The notes under the pieces were generated by a model that was not told the origin of the DNA, did no database searches, and saw only the letters and a list, made by a program, of their open reading frames with translations. From the NCBI GenBank assembly GCA_963971405.1, contig OZ020484.1, positions 19,964,001-20,028,000 on the forward strand: a stretch of 64,000 nt of DNA. Reading direction: 5' to 3'. Positions 3,526 through 63,160 of this stretch are shown in pieces (the stretch's first letter is position 1; each line of letters starts with the position of its first letter). The translations under genes and the position numbers were made by a program. This stretch comes from Psococerastis gibbosa (lineage: Eukaryota > Arthropoda > Insecta > Psocodea > Psocidae).

Positions 3526-4262
3526 AAAATTGTTACAGTACCTAAAAGCGTGTGAAGCAGAAATTTATGAACTTAAACAACAATTGACTGATTCGGACTG
3601 TATATTGTGTTGAAACTCCCAAAAAAACCTCCAGGATGATATTTCCTGGTGAGGAATTTAACTGCAATATGAGCCATCGGCATAGCTTGTGGAACCACAC
3701 ATCAGTGATTCTTGTTGGAATCTGACTTGCAGCAGCTTGTCAAAGTGAACAATCTGAATCTGTGCATCCTACTGTTGCGTCGTTCGATGGTCTCAATGGC
3801 CGTGTACAAGATAGTGACTGCCCAAAACCTGTCAGAATGTGAAGACACTTACTAGTAGGTGTTGGAAAGTTTGTGGGATGGTTGTTGTGTGGCTCCGCTA
3901 CGGGGACGAATGAGACCCGGACTATAGCGAAGCAACTTAATTCAGGGGCTATCACTGCAGCTATTTGACCCGGGAAGTGTAACCAGAGGAACACAATGTG
4001 AAACCTCAGGTTACAAAAAGGAGGTGAACCTGGTTATACTAAGCCGAAGGCTGCAGTAAGGGGTAACGAAAGATAACTAAAAGAAGAAGTGTTTATGCCA
4101 TGGCTCATGTTGTAGTTTAATTCCTCGTGTATCATCACTCCAGGAATGTCATCCTGGATGTTTTCTTATGACTTTCAAGTCCCAATATACAGTACGAATC
4201 AGTCTTGTTTAAGTTCATAAATTTCTGTTTCACATGCTTTTAGGTATCGTAACAAGAATTTT
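3526..4262. repeat. Large foldback with about 165-bp arms
   Basis: The left arm (3526-3685) and the right arm (4092-4262) are reverse complements at roughly 80-85% by eye, with a few small indels. Landmarks present in both arms are cctaaaagc, gcagaaatttatgaactt (acagaaatttatgaactt in the right arm), ccaggatga, gaggaatt and gagccat. The two arms meet at the gccat..ggcata segment, so the original element was an almost loopless hairpin of about 330 bp. The present 400-bp loop is occupied by another repeat (Rpt-H, 3686-4091). The class is unknown; it is a foldback or MITE-like DNA element. No target-site duplication was recognised. Confidence 0.75.
3686..4091 (+). mobile_element. Rpt-H copy 1, inserted in the foldback loop
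   Basis: Matches 23560-23880 over its length. Shared landmarks in order are ttgtggaa.caca, cttgcagcagctt, aatctgaa, the ctcaatgg..gtacaag block, a gtgtggctccgct-type segment (ccggcttcgct in copy 2), and the aacttaattcag-type block. It ends with aactaaaagaagaag, a trinucleotide tail like those of RTE-type elements and the SINEs they move. The insertion point coincides with the centre of the surrounding hairpin. No coding capacity was seen: the 84-codon minus frame here is not recognised. Confidence 0.6.
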
Positions 4263-12375: not shown

Positions 12376-12401
12376 GATGCGCCTTTTTCCAAACAACCAC
12401 A

Positions 12402-12515
12402 TTATTAGTTGACCTTTCACTACTTGAAAGGGTTGGCAATCACGGGATCTTTCTCTGGGAAAAAAGATGACCGTGCGGTTGTAAACCCCTTCAAGTAGTG
12501 AGAGGTCAATTAACA
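12402..12515. mobile_element. MITE-F, about 110-bp hairpin
   Basis: The left arm ttgacctttcactacttgaa (12409 on, through ggttggcaatcacgg) is inverted in the right arm (12470-12509), whose reverse complement starts ttgacctctcactacttgaa. Only 25 bp separate the arms. It lies 25-30 bp downstream of the LINE tail at 12127-12375. Single copy here. Confidence 0.7.
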
Positions 12516-13371
12516 GTATGATTGTTAAGAGCGTTCAACAAGGGCGTATCATGCGGCCGTTAAATATTTGAGCGCACCACTTTTCTGTTGGATTATCCGA
12601 ATTATAATGTAAATTTCATATGCAGCTGAATCTTATCCTTATATTTGCCCTAAATCAATTGTTCGTGACTTTTATACCAATTCCCAATTTGCGGGCATTG
12701 CTTAGGTTTATTACTCAGGATACGAACGCCTGCAGATGGTTCCAAACCTAATCCATTGTAAGCCTGGGCCGTAAAAAATGACGGTTCTCTGTGGGGCAAA
12801 TCTGATCGAATTTTAAACCGCGCGGCTCGTAAATGCCTCGTCGTAATCTCACCAGTAATGGCGGCCGGGATTAAAGTTTTGCTGGACTCAGTCATGTTTC
12901 TTCGGCTATAATATGACTTGCGACCATTCTTCTCCGATCAATGGGAATTTCTCAGTAATACGGTTGTTGAAGAGAGCAGTATAGACAGCCAATTTTAAAA
13001 TATGGCGATGCTGTGGGACGTTTCTGTTACGATGTTCGGTCGAGAATTTTTGCATTTTTCAAATGAGAATATTTAATCCAATGTAATCAATAATGGGAAT
13101 ACTATAGCTGCCAAGTTAGTTTTGGTTATTTATTGCATGGAATATTAATATAATTATAATTAAACTATAAACAAAAATTTCCTTTTCTAAAGTATAAATA
13201 AAGCAGATGAGGGTGATAGGTATGAAGGCCATAAATAATTCTATTCTATTGGATTGAAATTTTACACACACCAAAGTTTTATGAGTTTTATAAGAGAGAA
13301 TTCCGAAATTGACGCAATTGTCAATGGAGAAGAAATAGTATGATTTTTAAAAGTGCAGGCTGGGACACGTC
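12516..13371. other. No gene recognised
   Basis: An 81-codon minus frame at 12650-12895 has a fairly even, protein-like composition but no recognised motif. It may be part of an unrecognised element. The rest is AT-rich. Confidence 0.4.
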
Positions 13372-18812: not shown

Positions 18813-19612
18813 TTCTTCTTCTTCTGGGGTTACAATCTATCGATTGGTTTGCAGCAACTTGACTCTTCTTCTCCACTCCTCCCTGTCTTCCGCGATCCTT
18901 TTCATTTCCCAGTAGGTCCCGCACTCCATGTCCGCCATTACATCCTCCATGTGCTCCTTTCTCGGCCTGCCTCTGTGATTTGTGCCCTCGACTGAGCCTT
19001 CAACAATGGTGTTTAGAAGGCTTTCATGCCTGATAAGGTGCCCCATAAATCTGGCCCTCCTCGTAGATATAGCTATCGTTAATGTTCTTTTTTCGTTTAG
19101 CCTACGAAGCACCTCCTCATTCGCGATATGGTCTCGCCATGAAATTTGCAGCATTCTCCTGTAGCACCACATCTCAAAGGCCTCTAGTTTCTTTTTGTCA
19201 CTTTCATGAATGCACCAAGTTTCGCAGCCATACAGCAGTATACTCCATACCAGTGTTTTAAGCATTCGTTTTCTTATTTTCATGTCAATATTATTTGATT
19301 CAAATATTTTGGATTTTTTGTTGAATGCCACTCTTGCAAGATGTATTCTGGTAGAGATTTCTTGTGCCGATTTTCCATCTTGTGTAATCGCACTACCAAG
19401 GTATGGGAAGGACTTGACGTTCTTTAGAGTTACCCCCTCTAGGACGACATTGGCTAGGGTTTCTTCCCGGCTGGCCACCATAGTCTTCGTCTTTGCCTTG
19501 TTTAGCTTCATATTGTATTCTTTCAAAACATTCTGCATTGTAACCAAAGATTCAAGCAGTTCTTCTTCTGATTAGTAGAGTAGCCAATACGTTTGCATAT
19601 GCATATTATTGT
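18813..19612 (-). mobile_element. RTE-type LINE, 5' truncated
   Basis: The element is read on the minus strand. It starts near a decayed reverse-transcriptase YADD box (read as YANV, about 19597-19608), carries the C-terminal 236 codons, and ends after the stop with ttgtaaccccagaagaagaa, a (GAA)n tail typical of RTE elements. The YADD region and the long frame are out of register, so the copy is dead at its 5' side although the C-terminal frame is open. Further 3' ends of the same family lie at 43741 and 56829. Confidence 0.85.
18837..19547 (-). CDS. RTE-clade reverse transcriptase, C-terminal part
   Basis: The fragment, 236 codons, would belong to an endonuclease-reverse transcriptase that copies element RNA into the genome. 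The frame continues past 19547 to an upstream stop, so no true start exists. Visible in order: the FPYLGSAITQDG block with EISTRIHLARVAFNKKSK (about residues 47-78), LVWSILLYGCETW (about 100-112), AFEMWCYRRMLQISWRD (about 123-139), RRARFMGHLIRH (about 161-172), GRPRKEHMEDVM (about 190-201) and DREEWRRRVKLL (about 221-232). These match the connection and C-terminal regions of RTE/BovB-type LINEs. The endonuclease and catalytic palm are missing. The intact frame suggests a fairly recent insertion. It is a transposon relic, not a host gene. Confidence 0.85.
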   Translation of the reverse strand: MVTMQNVLKEYNMKLNKAKTKTMVASREETLANVVLEGVTLKNVKSFPYLGSAITQDGKSAQEISTRIHLARVAFNKKSKIFESNNIDMKIRKRMLKTLVWSILLYGCETWCIHESDKKKLEAFEMWCYRRMLQISWRDHIANEEVLRRLNEKRTLTIAISTRRARFMGHLIRHESLLNTIVEGSVEGTNHRGRPRKEHMEDVMADMECGTYWEMKRIAEDREEWRRRVKLLQTNR

Positions 19613-20456
19613 CTCTAACGACTGGATTTATGTCACCTGGCACTTCTAACACCTGGAACTATTAACGAAAGGTTGGATAATGAATCTGCCCTGCCACTCT
19701 CTCTCTCAGGGGACATAATTCCAAAATCAAAGTTTGAGGAAAGAATATTTAACTTCATTTGCCGCAACCTGCAGTCGCTTCCAGTCTGGAAGACCGCAAG
19801 GAGTGGATGCGCTCAGTGTGTACCTAGACGAGAGAAAATACGTACTTTGGATTCTCATCTCGTAAAATACGTAAACGTCTCCGACGGGTTTTCCCGGAAT
19901 TGTTTTGTATCCGAGATAAGGGGAAAGTTTATTCTTCAATTTAGTTGGCGTTTTGAGCACATACAGTAACTGCGAACAATTGAATCGATAAAAAACACTT
20001 TTCCGCACTGTCGTCCCGGACATTTTTATATTTCAACAAACACGTCTGTCTGAGACTGAGAGGGTGGAGGGGGGGGGGAGAAGAAAGTGGCAGAGAAATG
20101 GGGGCTTAGAGAAGCCTTGAGACTAGGAATAAAATCGGGACGTGGATCGACGAGGGGTCGCTAACTCTCCTGAAACTTGCTTCAATTGGAGGCCAGATGC
20201 ACAAGTTCCCTGCCCCAGTGCGCTTTTTCGTTGTTACCGAAGAAAGCGAGCTGGCTTTTCTCTTCAATTGGGAAAATTTTCTCTTTTTGAATAGATTTAA
20301 ATTTTTAAGTGAAAATCTTCCCCTTTAATGCTAGGGTTCATATCCTACATGTGTGTGTAAAAAAAATCATAATAATTGCAGTTTTTTATTGGATCCACGT
20401 AGAACTGATGAATGGCTTAGCGGTGACGTCTCCCCAGTTTTTTTTAAATAACTTAG
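19613..20456. other. No gene recognised
   Basis: Two overlapping 98-codon frames (19673-19969 plus, 19727-20023 minus) without recognised motifs. A G11-type run lies at about 20070 in a purine-rich stretch. No repeat match. Confidence 0.4.
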
Positions 20457-20612
20457 TCAAGTATTGCTAAAAATATATTTACAGCGACCGGTTTCGGCAC
20501 TAGGCCATCGTCTACTAATATATTAATTTATGTAGGGTTTTTTGAATGTCTGTAGCCTGACGAAGTGTCTAAACCGGTCGCTTTAAACATATTTTTAGTA
20601 ATACTTGATTAT
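20457..20612. mobile_element. Foldback with hammerhead-like motifs in both arms
   Basis: The arms 20457-20517 and 20552-20612 are inverted at about 80%. Each contains gcgaccggttt when read inward. Read outward on the minus strand, the left arm gives a GGC-loop-GCC stem, GAAA, CCGG and UC (20512-20486). On the plus strand the right arm gives CTGACGA, a short stem, TAAA, CCGG and TC (20557-20580). This order (CUGANGA - stem II - GAAA - stem III - UH) is the hammerhead ribozyme core. Hammerheads with a tiny palindromic stem III are known from the terminal repeats of Penelope-like retroelements, which also show inverted repeats. Each copy carries substitutions, so activity is doubtful. No Penelope reverse transcriptase is present. 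Confidence 0.55.
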
Positions 20613-21554
20613 GGTTTTTTATTTTTGACTAGCGCGTAGCTGGATGATAGGCTCAGAAAAAAAAACTGAAAGAACAAAATATTTTTTCTATTTTTTATGA
20701 AATTTTGTGCACTCTGAATAGGCATCATACATAACAATTACAGCTAATAAATGAAAAATGTCCAAGACTTGTTCCGAAGGATGACGTGAAAATTTAAACA
20801 AATATTAAATTGTCGATAAAAAGAGATGGAACTCAGAAATATGAAAATAAATTTAAATAAGAGAGAAAAAGAAGTCTTAGTTATTGGTTTAATGCATTTG
20901 CTGACCAGTCAGGATCCAGTTGAAATGTGGTTTTCATACTTTTATAGCTCTAATAAAATGTTGCAAGTGAATGGGTACTTTTGGCAGGACGTTGTTAAAA
21001 TTTGATGGATGTAACTGGGGAAATCGTAAAGCACAATAATTTACTGAATGTACACGTGCAGGGAAGCTTTCTTGCTGCCATTATGTGTTATGGAAATCAG
21101 GACGGAAGTAAGGCAGGTATTAACAGTAATGGCGTCTCTTTACAGGAAGCGTATAATACCTTGCATTAATGCGATACCTATTTAGTTGAGATGACTGTTT
21201 CTGTCACATAAAATTAATGACATTATCAACTCCTATTCTACTTGATAACCGACACATTATCTCCATTTACGGTTTATGAATTTATAATGTGGCTTATGGC
21301 CGTTAAGCTATGTAGCGATATACTAATATTATGATAAATTGACAAGATAACAAGTCTACGACAACATGTATATAGCAACTGGTGTGGTGATACCCAAAGA
21401 AATGCTCAGTTGAACAATTGAAGAAAAAAACAGACACAGAGTTCTAACTTTTGGAAAAGATTAACGATTCTACATGAAAGTAGAGGAAAATTTCAAATTC
21501 ACACTGGTATCCAATGATTACTAGTTAATTTATTTAAAAAAAATTGACAAATTT
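20613..21554. other. No gene recognised; AT-rich
   Basis: No long frame, repeat-family match or RNA-like structure seen. Confidence 0.45.
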
Positions 21555-27119: not shown

Positions 27120-27295
27120 AATCTGTTGTCGCTGCTGAGCCTCCGAGATACAATCTTAGAAGTCTACGCAGTTCCACTGAAGATGTCGACCGCAGATGTT
27201 GACGAAACGTTTGGATGTTCGCTTTCATTTCGACCACGGCCCATCAGCCCGGTTCTTCATTCGACTCCGGCCGTGAAAGCCTTTGCTGTTACAAA
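27120..27295 (+). repeat. Rpt-C copy 1
   Basis: gttcgctttcatttcgacca, cggcccatcagcccgg, then ggccgtgaaagcctttg. This corresponds to 31530-31615 and, in both orientations, to 38005-38095. The upstream block with gaagatgtcgaccgcag may belong to it. Class unknown. Confidence 0.5.
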
Positions 27296-28987
27296 GTCAC
27301 CTATTGCCTATTACCATTCGTGGGCTTTTTCGTGCCAGCGATCCCACTTGGAGGTGTACCTGCAGCAAGATGCCAATTTTTTTAAAGTGAAGAACTCAGT
27401 TTTGCTCGCACTGTGGTGAATTTTTCAGCTTGATTATTTTTGTTGTTGAATTTGATTGTATTGATCAGTAAAAGATTAACGTAATATTTCCACTATTATA
27501 ACTTTTAGACATTATAATATGTTTTTCGTTTCTTCTTACATCATGCCATTGCTGTACGTGTATGTGTCCCAACTCTCAATTAAGTGAACAAAGCTCCATG
27601 CCCTGCAATTTTATGAGTTGATTGTTTGTGATGACAGTGTAAAAGCAGTGAACAGCCATTACGGATTTTATTTGGGGTGTCTGGCATTGTTTTAAAAGCA
27701 GCCAGCAGAGGGTGTTAACTCAGCAGTCAGCAGTGGCGACCGCTCGTAAACGACAAGGTAAATATTAGTAAGGTTGTAAACTCAGATGAAAACTTTATTG
27801 TCGACTTTGTATTACCCCTTGCTGTTCGCAGGCCTTTGCTTCCCTTAATGTTGTTGCTATTTTCAATTTTTAGGGCTTCCCAGCATTTGTATAAGTCTTG
27901 CTGACCTGCGCGGTCTACGCTGGCCGCAGAGCCCATCTGCCGCTTTCTTAAACCCAGCAGCACCTGCTCTGCATTGACGAGAAGGTCATATTTTTCTGTC
28001 TGGGGGCTGACAACAACCTGAGCCCAGCCCAGCCGGGATGTAATGTTATTTAACTTATTTAATTTTCAAGCCCCCCACAATAAGCCAAAAAAACAATTTA
28101 TAATTAATATTGGTATCCCACTAGGGGTAAGTTAAGATAAATGAAAACAATTTTTTCCGCGTTTCCCGGGAAAAGTCCATTACGGTGGCTCTTCATGCAC
28201 ATTGTGTAAACCTGCCCAAGCTTCGGTATTCAGCATTCGCCCAAAACCCTGCTTCGTGGCATCTTTAATATCGATGTAAATATTTAGCTTGTGCGCAAAA
28301 CCGAGGTTACTATGCTATAGATAGCCTTTATACAACAAAAAGTTCCTTTATTGCATGTTGTTTTTTCTCATACTGACAAACGAATAAATTGGGGTAAAAA
28401 ATAAAATTACTCGTAATGCCTTGAGGAATAAGGATGGTAAACAGACGACTGTCGAAATTGCCAGTCAAGAGGGAAATCAATTGCTTTTCGCATAAGGTGC
28501 ACAAAAGAACTTGTTGACGACATAATGTATGAAATTGGGAAAATGACAAGTGGTAGCATTATCAAAAGTGAACGAATAAAAGAAATCACGACATGGAGTG
28601 ACGTAGAGTACACTAGTTAGACGTTATCTGACAAACTGAGTAAGCTGCCATTTCGAAACGGTCACCACCCTCCCCTGACCTTTGCTGTTCGATTGATCGA
28701 GGTAATGACCATTTCGAGCTTATTAAACTTCCTTTTAGCAGACCCGACGCGTTAAGTTTAGTTCAGATCGATTAATGTAAAATTGCCGGACTCTGGGTGT
28801 TCTGACCTTATTTTAATATCGACTTTTAATTTCAGTTTTTACTTAAGCTGGAAATTTGTAAAGGCATTTTTTTCTTCAAATTTACTGTGTTTGTTCGAGA
28901 ACCTGTCGGGAATAGTTGAATAATATAAATAGGCATTGCTTAGATCAGCTTATGTTTTTTATGTTTTTATGTTTTTTTTTAAAAAAG
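27296..28987. other. No gene recognised
   Basis: 27950-28050 is G+C richer (cagcccagcccagccgg) and unassigned. Overlapping minus frames at 28328-28613 lack motifs. Confidence 0.4.
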
Positions 28988-31504: not shown

Positions 31505-31625
31505 TTCCAAACGTGCTGTTGGGCGTACTTTGGAATGTACGCTTCCAAATCGACCACGGCTCATCATCCCGGATTCTACTGCTTCATCGTCAGACTATGA
31601 CCGTGGAAGCCTTTGTAATTATATC
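31505..31625 (+). repeat. Rpt-C copy 2
   Basis: gtacgcttccaaatcgacca, cggctcatcatcccggattc, tactgcttcatcg and ccgtggaagcctttg match copies 1 and 3. A short palindrome (attccaaa / tttggaat) lies at its left edge. Confidence 0.6.
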
Positions 31626-34076: not shown

Positions 34077-34862
34077 CCTTCGTGGGGCCCTACTCGTTTG
34101 AGTTCCTATAAGCGTCGACCTAGAAGGTCTTTTGCTTCCACGTTTGCCGTCTACGCCCATCTTATAACACCAGTCTTTTTGATAAATTCTAGTGTTTTCG
34201 TGATGGGATTAGATCGGATGGTTTCCTCTTCAGACCTAGGGTGGCCAAGAGCTTGGTATCGAGTTTGTCCCAGCGCTTCACATTCAAAGAGAATGTGTTC
34301 AGCTGTTTCTTCTTCAACTTCACACAGTCTGCATCTACTGTCGTTTTTCACGCCAACCCTATGCATGTGTTTGTTGAAGTGGCCGTGGCCCGTAAGCGTG
34401 CCAACCACCCTTCTAGCTTGCTCTCTACTTAAAGAGAGAAGCTGATCGGTGAGCTTCTTACTAGGACCCGGAATAACCTTCTTAGCAAATCTGCTTTCCG
34501 GGACTTTCTTCCATTCCTCTGCAGTTTTTCTCTGCACCCATTTTTGTACAGAAGTACGGGCCTGGCAATAAGCCATCCCGTACTTAGGTTCTGCACCAAT
34601 GAATGGCGTTTCTGCACCTTTTCGAGCCAGCTCGTCGGCTCTTTCATTCCCATCAAAGTTCGAGTGCGCCGGGACCCAAATCAGCGAGACTGAGTTTTCC
34701 CGACACACCTTTATTAGGAGGTTGGTGCAGTGCCACACCATTTTTGATGTGATCTTTATAGCCCCCACAGCCTTAATCGCTGCCTGCGAGTCTGTATAGA
34801 TAATAATGGTTTTGCCCTTGCATTCCATTTCCATACACTCCTCTAGGCACTGAATTTACGGG
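34046..34862 (-). mobile_element. RNase H-bearing LINE, poly(A) end, 5' truncated
   Basis: On the minus strand the open frame is followed by a 70-bp 3' UTR and a poly(A) tail, seen as about 32 T at 34046-34078 on plus. The sequence similarity stops upstream at about 34858, where an in-frame TAA precedes IQCLEECMEME. The insertion is therefore 5' truncated at about 0.8 kb. I could not identify the target-site duplication. The long uninterrupted tail suggests a young copy. Confidence 0.8.
34151..34834 (-). CDS. LINE RNase H domain and C-terminal zinc knuckle
   Basis: The frame encodes 227 residues from the end of an I/Jockey/R1-type polyprotein; the RNase H would remove the RNA template during element copying. 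Visible: TIIIYTDSQAAI (about residues 9-20) with the catalytic Asp, then LIWVPAHSNFDGNERADELA (about 51-70) with the conserved His and last Asp, then LLSLSREQARRVVGTLTGHG (about 132-151), then the Cys-His motif CRLCEVEEETAEHILFEC (C-x2-C-x12-H-x4-C-like, about 167-184). The first RNase H strands and the whole reverse transcriptase are missing. No disruption is seen within the frame. It is a transposon fragment with no functional start expected. Confidence 0.85.
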   Translation of the reverse strand: MEMECKGKTIIIYTDSQAAIKAVGAIKITSKMVWHCTNLLIKVCRENSVSLIWVPAHSNFDGNERADELARKGAETPFIGAEPKYGMAYCQARTSVQKWVQRKTAEEWKKVPESRFAKKVIPGPSKKLTDQLLSLSREQARRVVGTLTGHGHFNKHMHRVGVKNDSRCRLCEVEEETAEHILFECEALGQTRYQALGHPRSEEETIRSNPITKTLEFIKKTGVIRWA

Positions 34863-38004: not shown

Positions 38005-38095
38005 CCTGCCGAAGCAGTAGAATCCGGGATGATAGGCCGTGGTCGTTCTGAAAGCGTACTTCCAATCATACCGGATTCTACTGCTTCATCTCGTC
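38005..38095. repeat. Rpt-C copy 3, palindromic
   Basis: gaagcagtagaatccgggat at 38010 is inverted at the right (ccggattctactgcttc, about 38071-38087). Between them gccgtggtcg and gcgtacttcc match the Rpt-C core in minus orientation. The two half-copies head to head make a natural hairpin, so Rpt-C may itself be a foldback element. Confidence 0.6.
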
Positions 38096-63008: not shown

Positions 63009-63160
63009 TAAAAGGGCATATTCCACCTACGTCAATAGCGAATAGTAAATGTGGTATTGACGTGGTAGCAGACATTTTTAGTATGTCTTTAATGTCTGAT
63101 ACCACGTCAGTACCACATTTACTATTGACTATTGACGTAGGTGGAATAAGCGCCTTAACA
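63009..63160. mobile_element. MITE-C, near-perfect palindromic element
   Basis: The left arm ttccacctacgtcaatagcg (63021 on, through agtaaatgtggtattgacgt and ggtagcagacatt) is inverted in the right arm (63090-63146) with only about four differences in 56. The outer edges continue (ttaaaagggcat / gcgccttaac) at lower identity. The loop is about 12 bp. Non-coding, and the high arm identity suggests a recent insertion. Shares a 17-mer with 10042-10058. Confidence 0.8.

Follow-up and report, generated by a model that had tools for sequence, protein, structure and literature searches.

A foldback in Psococerastis gibbosa as a probable relic of an endonuclease-bearing Penelope-like element and the head-to-head pairs of its genomic relatives

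Minimal hammerhead ribozymes with a poor stem III have reportedly been described in Penelope-like elements (PLEs) by Cervera and De la Pena in 2014 and by Lunse, Weinberg and Breaker in 2017. As far as the available parts of PMC7761336 and PMC6155905 go, the hammerheads considered here are like the minimal PLE ones in their type I order, the absence of a stem III hairpin, the dimer-pairing palindrome and the PLE context. Head-to-head pseudo-LTRs (pLTRs) with a tail on one arm belong to the published anatomy of PLEs in the accessible portion of PMC3846280, in which the endonuclease-containing PLEs of Adineta vaga have inverted pLTRs, as do the pairs in the present genome. Poseidon of Anolis carolinensis (PAc) is also alike. 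It carries reverse transcriptase (RT) and GIY-YIG in one ORF, a hammerhead at the pLTR/ORF junction and two RT start sites that bound the tail, and its targets are AT-rich (PMC11167929). PAc differs in that its ORF starts at stem II, with the cut 26 bp within the ORF, whereas the tail ATG of the elements in this genome sits downstream of the ribozyme.

The window, which is the whole analysed stretch of 64,000 nucleotides, contains a foldback with two 56-nt arms at 20446-20501 and 20564-20619. The arms are 84% complementary and 62 nt apart, and they lie where a sequence-only reading of this DNA had placed an inverted repeat. Against dinucleotide shuffles, the folding z-scores of the two strands are -10.0 and -9.5, about 10 SD below. 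We compared the arms with an nhmmer profile of 479 positions made from 17 genomic copies of the unit, and both matched as 5′-truncated PLE 3′ ends. The left arm (20445..20515, minus strand) covers profile positions 319-393 with 74.9 bits, and the right arm (20522..20632, plus strand) covers 289-407 with 77.1 bits. The arms diverge, the 3′ end of the left arm pointing left and that of the right arm pointing right.

Comparison with 24 other aligned copies indicates that both hammerhead cores are broken. The plus-strand core at 20557..20579 reads CTGACGA AGTGTC TAA ACCGGT C, with CTGACGA at 20557-20563, TAAA instead of GAAA at 20570-20573, ACCGGT at 20573-20578 and C17 at 20579; the 5′ strand of its stem II is deleted. 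The minus-strand core at 20486..20514 reads TAGACGA T GGC CTAGT GCC GAA ACCGGT C. Its stem GGC (20506-20504)/GCC (20498-20496), intact GAAA (20495-20492), ACCGGT (20492-20487) and C17 (20486) are present, but box 1 (20514-20508) is TAGACGA for CTGANGA, having lost C3 and U4. The sequence-only reading, which saw hammerhead cores in both arms, had the box order right and also the GGC/GCC stem, GAAA, CCGG and TC of the minus arm, for which it listed no CTGANGA; each arm nevertheless misses one essential box, and neither core holds CUGANGA and GAAA together in one motif. The two cores appear to be inactive relics descended from the hammerhead family, not working members of it. Because neither ribozyme would be able to work as it stands, we regard the locus as a fossil.

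Both arms of the window pair are tailless, ending at profile positions 393 and 407. A target duplication is not recognisable around the pair (best 3 bp), and the pair contains neither coding sequence nor RT, since both arms are truncated short of the ORF. Compared with the Adineta vaga PLEs in the accessible portion of PMC3846280, the window copy thus consists of the pLTR part of each arm, lacking tail and target duplication. The earlier remark that no reverse transcriptase is present is true of this pair, but not of its relative L181, which carries RVT_1. The proposed Rfam covariance search returned no hammerhead in the whole window at gathering thresholds, in 900 bases around the foldback at E<=10, in 7 loci carrying repeat copies or in 5 loci where copies of families A, C and D (defined below) are intact. 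This silence says little about the window, because Rfam is equally silent on loci with intact copies. The G+C content of the window is 36-41%, and LINE-like fragments are present; LINE-type open fragments at 18837-19571 and 34151-34855 (both minus strand) show a weak RVT_1 match (19.2 bits, below the cut-off) and RNase H with zf-RVT. Other inverted repeats occur at 63011-63156, 12392-12526 and 3530-4255, with arms of 48-66 nt that are 81-92% complementary.

We searched the genome (409 Mb, 68 contigs) for relatives of the foldback, which we call family A. The 22-nt hammerhead core matched 311 times with at most 2 mismatches and its reversed-pattern control not once, a count that excludes chance resemblance. 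Searching with 61 nt of the minus arm produced 185 candidates, of which 40 were scored, and these contained 41 matches. The family A set comprises 49 distinct loci, namely 20, 8 and 20 from three samplings plus the window. The first two samplings were chosen by query similarity, and 8 of the 12 loci of the second were kept, as L149, L153, L155 and L159 repeated L139, L139, L151 and L132; the third was the top of the core-pattern list (14 exact, 6 with one mismatch). The aligned copies read GCCTGACGATGGCCTAGTGCCGAAACCGGTCGC. A genome-wide lack of the CUGANGA and GAAA boxes had been named as the finding that would count against the ribozymes; instead, the aligned copies elsewhere in the genome retain CTGACGA...GAAACCGGTC, with CUGANGA, stem II, GAAA, A15.1-U16.1 and H17 in order. 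The intact copies that the sequence-only reading asked for therefore exist, and it was right to take these for hammerhead-type sequences whose palindromic stem III is of the kind reported from PLEs. Scanning 281,901 bases for CTGANGA, a stem of 3 bp or longer and GAAA gave 22 hits. Sixteen of them belong to two families, 13 to family A, with one of these lying in a repeated locus, and 3 to family B; ten Markov controls gave 1-5 hits per set. In viral contigs, a 14-mer pattern had many matches among those listed, mostly expected by chance, and the fuller hammerhead motif had none.

This genome contains four or more repeat families whose cores are of the hammerhead type. Their cores are AGC CTGACGA T GGC..GCC GAA ACCGGT C GCT in family A; CCA CTGAAGA T GTCGAC..GTTGAC GAA ACGT T TGG in family B (window 27177); CAC TTGACGA T GGC GTGA GCC GAA ACCGGT T GTG in family C (L181, L182, L186 and L190); and CAC TTGAGAA T GACA ATC TGTC GAA ACCGGT C GTG in family D (L185 and L189). 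All four have one extra unpaired T ahead of stem II. The canonical hammerhead core has no unpaired T at this place, and the extra T may also set families A-D apart from the minimal PLE hammerheads. Family B lies in the window at 27156-27305 (plus), with fragments at 31529-31615 (plus) and 38019-38065 (minus); an intact-looking core, CTGAAGA T GTCGAC..GTTGAC GAAACGTT, occupies 27177-27208. The family D pattern was found at 185 places with at most 3 mismatches (control 0). The listing covers 100 of these places, 52 of them exact matches; U3 and A8, both favoured by the pattern itself, are retained there. U3-A8 replaces the C3-G8 of the ribozyme core in many near-identical copies of this family (for example L185 and L189), a difference from the minimal PLE hammerheads. 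The swap is known in nature, and the accessible portion of PMC3088659 already reports natural occurrence and in vitro activity of U3-A8 hammerheads.

The predicted fold was examined in 13 chosen intact sequences. As the MAFFT alignment misplaced family B, we used hand-trimmed pieces of equal length, and the counts lean towards the model. In this set, which was trimmed to the model, not blind and poor in independent events, the hammerhead pairs including the tertiary 3-8 pair formed in 92.3% of cells against 73.3% in shuffled sequences. Covariation over the four families was 0.567 against 0.204 when shuffled, a value reached by 0 of 500 shuffles, and slid partners gave 0.016-0.278. The 3-8 pair is C-G in 9 sequences, U-G in 2 and U-A in 2. 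The covariation of stems I and II and the 3-8 pair supports the predicted hammerhead fold. In dimer folding, the L181 pair adopts the dimeric hammerhead shape unconstrained, with A14-U17 additionally paired, and the pairs of families A and B do not take this shape.

The repeat unit runs, from 5′ to 3′, from the end of a GIY-YIG endonuclease ORF through a pseudo-LTR with the hammerhead to an optional tail of about 50 bp. In longer copies, the translation immediately 5′ of the ribozyme consists of pieces of the PLE endonuclease, such as RYVGQTGR in L158 and ALAQHTNLSGHLCNFNNFKI and KAMNSGKNVFNDVTYMKRSPLLELAANFP in L156. A 75-aa composite endonuclease probe yielded 1902 candidates, and all 150 that were scored matched (weakest E 8.4e-18). 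L181 is a younger relative, 58% identical in the stretch upstream of the ribozyme. Its 520-aa open frame contains RVT_1 (E 7e-10) and GIY-YIG (E 3e-4; 21.4 bits, slightly below the Pfam cut-off of 22.6), and a homologous ribozyme lies downstream. RT and a C-terminal GIY-YIG in one ORF are found in L181; family A shows endonuclease pieces only, and the window shows none. The link to the PLE endonuclease, as read from the sequences, is seen for families A, C and D, and the assignment of family B rests on its ribozyme and pair form.

The 3′ ends of the profile hits also fit PLE anatomy, in which a pseudo-LTR with an optional tail occurs in direct or inverted order. Out of 75 hits, 57 end at two positions (386-418 in 32 and 444-475 in 25), 4 end at 419-443 and 14 at 385 or before. 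The tail is the stretch between the two end positions, and its ATG opens a frame, which in L182 begins ATG AGT GAC AGC CAG TTT TAC. Three copies, L148 4441-4491 (minus), L163 786-819 (minus) and L180 728-821 (plus), end at profile 354-356, 2-4 nt beyond the predicted cut after position 352, as if cut RNAs had been the templates; 3 of 75 hits are too few to claim this. L150 also stops at 354 but resumes after an insertion. In L184, the plus-strand arm (849-977) misses 17 nt of the ribozyme, from stem II to GAAA, which is whole in the other arm.

Inverted partners within 600 bp occur in 18 of the 49 family A loci (L129, L130, L133, L134, L138, L139, L140, L147, L148, L150, L151, L161, L166, L167, L173, L176, L178 and the window), and the 3′ ends point outward in all 18. 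The pattern-list sampling alone gave 6 paired loci out of 20. The other 31 loci have no inverted partner, and a search for hidden short inverted partners in them found no excess (1 of 31 against 1 and 0 in controls, at score 28); 8 of the 31 start at profile position 19 or before, and their flank may still be element sequence. Outward polarity also holds for 5 of 5 family B pairs (L136, L137, L171 and two in L139), for 9 of 9 neighbour pairs closer than 2 kb in the endonuclease listing (by eye, 150 of 1902 candidates listed), and for 7 of 7 pairs in the family D listing (100 of 185 places listed), one of which is common to both listings. With the pairs of L181 and L184 included, 40 of the 40 distinct inverted neighbour pairs seen are outward. 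Past 2 kb, the matches listed contain one convergent neighbour pair in the endonuclease listing (C13, 4.5 kb) and one divergent pair in that of family D (C12, 3.7 kb). Same-strand neighbours in 7 loci read as consecutive pieces of one interrupted copy, except in L130, which has a partial direct duplication.

The two arms of a pair commonly differ in the tail. Among the old family A pairs, 13 of the 15 scorable ones have one tailed and one tailless arm, the exceptions being the window and L167 (428/427), which have no tail at all; L138, L140 and L148 were left out, as one arm stops early. Seven younger pairs were chosen (L181 for its long frame, L184 for a shared deletion, the others as pairs in the endonuclease listing), and each has exactly one tailed arm by a probe taken from the right arm of L182 itself (L181, L182, L184, L186, L187, L188 and L190). 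We fetched 7 of the 9 endonuclease-listing pairs, with family D L185 and L189 left out of tail and duplication scoring. Target duplications of 11-13 bp flank all seven younger pairs, and none of 42 mismatched flank combinations exceeds 7 bp. Short target-site duplications are thus present as in endonuclease-bearing PLEs, and the length of 11-13 bp is a difference from the Adineta vaga PLEs as given in the available part of PMC3846280. The single duplication around each young pair indicates that the pair entered as a unit. In the old family, L147 (10 bp) and L161 (11 bp) are the sole loci with a clear duplication; L139 has an 8-bp duplication away from the edges, and mismatched flanks in this family reach 8.

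The relatedness of the two arms was also compared. Variants private to both arms of a pair number 1 in L187, 1 in L190 and 4 in L188, the sole member of its subgroup, and L182 and L186 have none. In the old family, where 25 or more columns were shared in 14 of the 18 pairs, shared deviations are mostly not in excess (1 in the window against a control mean of 0.3). The arms of L151 are slightly in excess (9 against a control mean of 2.8 and maximum of 8.7), and L139 is confounded by overlapping profile hits. The left arm of L182 is 99.0% identical to L181 and 96.2% to its partner, largely owing to a 12-bp deletion in the right arm. The exact deletion variant occurs at 2 places, the other being L184, an older copy, and CTG repeats lie at the break.

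The window feature is very probably an old, heavily 5′-truncated insertion of an endonuclease-bearing PLE with two 3′ ends head to head. The sequence-only reading had taken it for a separate, non-autonomous foldback or MITE-like element with a ribozyme in each arm, as the hairpin without RT and the recurrence of pairs in 18 of 49 old loci might suggest. We consider this very improbable, as 31 of the 49 loci lack a partner, the arms differ in length and in their 5′ ends, 3′ ends alternate, longer copies run into the PLE endonuclease, and the candidate coding relatives number in the thousands (1902), one of them, L181, showing RT and GIY-YIG with a homologous ribozyme. Fixed inverted ends around a short unit free of an autonomous element's coding sequence, which would mark a MITE-like element, were not found. 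The earlier interpretation was half right, since the PLE-type hammerheads stand and the separate foldback element does not. Short non-coding repeats with hammerhead motifs in an animal also recall retrozymes, whose short tandem units bear type I hammerheads and propagate as small circular RNAs (such elements appear in the available part of PMC7229834), but stem III has no hairpin and the 49 loci contain no tandem array of two ribozymes in direct order, apart from the partial duplication in L130, making a retrozyme most unlikely. That a hairpin merely resembles a hammerhead by chance, or that it yields a small RNA, is scarcely credible. Rfam's highest-scoring model for the region is indeed one of a miRNA (44.7 bits against a gathering score of 140), but the genomic core matches and the covariation over four families speak against it.

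For the PLE insertion itself, we propose the following course. Transcripts of the living element would carry a ribozyme in each pseudo-LTR, and, because stem III consists of nothing but the palindrome ACCGGU, cleavage would require the pairing of one ribozyme with another. The pair would arise in one insertion: the GIY-YIG endonuclease would make one cut in each target strand, the two cuts lying about 12 nt from each other, an element RNA would be reverse-transcribed with each target 3′ end as primer, and the resulting short cDNAs, two in number, would then be joined at their 5′ ends in the middle of the insertion. In Anolis, both target strands are cut and extended in vitro, two RT start sites bound the tail, and the hammerhead cuts only when the protein is present (PMC11167929); a limited literature search on head-to-head PLE insertion by both-strand target-primed reverse transcription returned, among PLE work, only this paper. 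The outward 3′ ends at two set positions match one priming event per target strand from two RT start sites. We somewhat favour priming on both target strands as the origin of the head-to-head pairs. Double priming would not be universal, given the 31 single loci and the absence of hidden partners in excess. The rival is self-priming, with the same PLE identity, in which an antisense template or cDNA folds back and copies itself. The antisense-template form is the model of PMC3846280, where, in the part available, its inference draws on intron retention and on palindromes found at the inverted junctions. Self-priming predicts pair-private variants, as seen in L187, L190 and L188, but such variants are absent in L182 and L186, and the L182 left arm is closer to L181 than to its partner. 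The private variants are ambiguous, as the combination would fit either self-priming or the use of two RNAs with a single source. Copying back alone would not be expected to halt at the inner site, yet the outer ends lie at two defined positions, one tailed and one tailless, that correspond to the two RT start sites of PMC11167929. Self-priming is thus rather unlikely, though a serious contender. Beyond double priming, we tentatively suggest, at somewhat less than even confidence, that PLE integration is two-ended with a built-in asymmetry, in which the outer RT site leaves the tail, the inner site does not, and many insertions become one-tailed head-to-head pairs.

The nature of an odd hairpin is settled here as a dead PLE fossil, and the window locus is an ordinary dead member of a known PLE insertion form. 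Of wider interest is the pattern that its relatives form across the genome, with 40 of 40 pairs outward, 20 of 22 scorable pairs one-tailed and 7 of 7 with target duplications. The pairs in this chromosome-scale genome record PLE insertion, a question left open between models in the accessible portion of PMC3846280. Scoring every pair, tail and target duplication in a genome of this kind could put double priming to the test with no new bench work. If two-ended asymmetric integration is true, the footprint of pair, tail and duplication would decide between double priming and self-priming.
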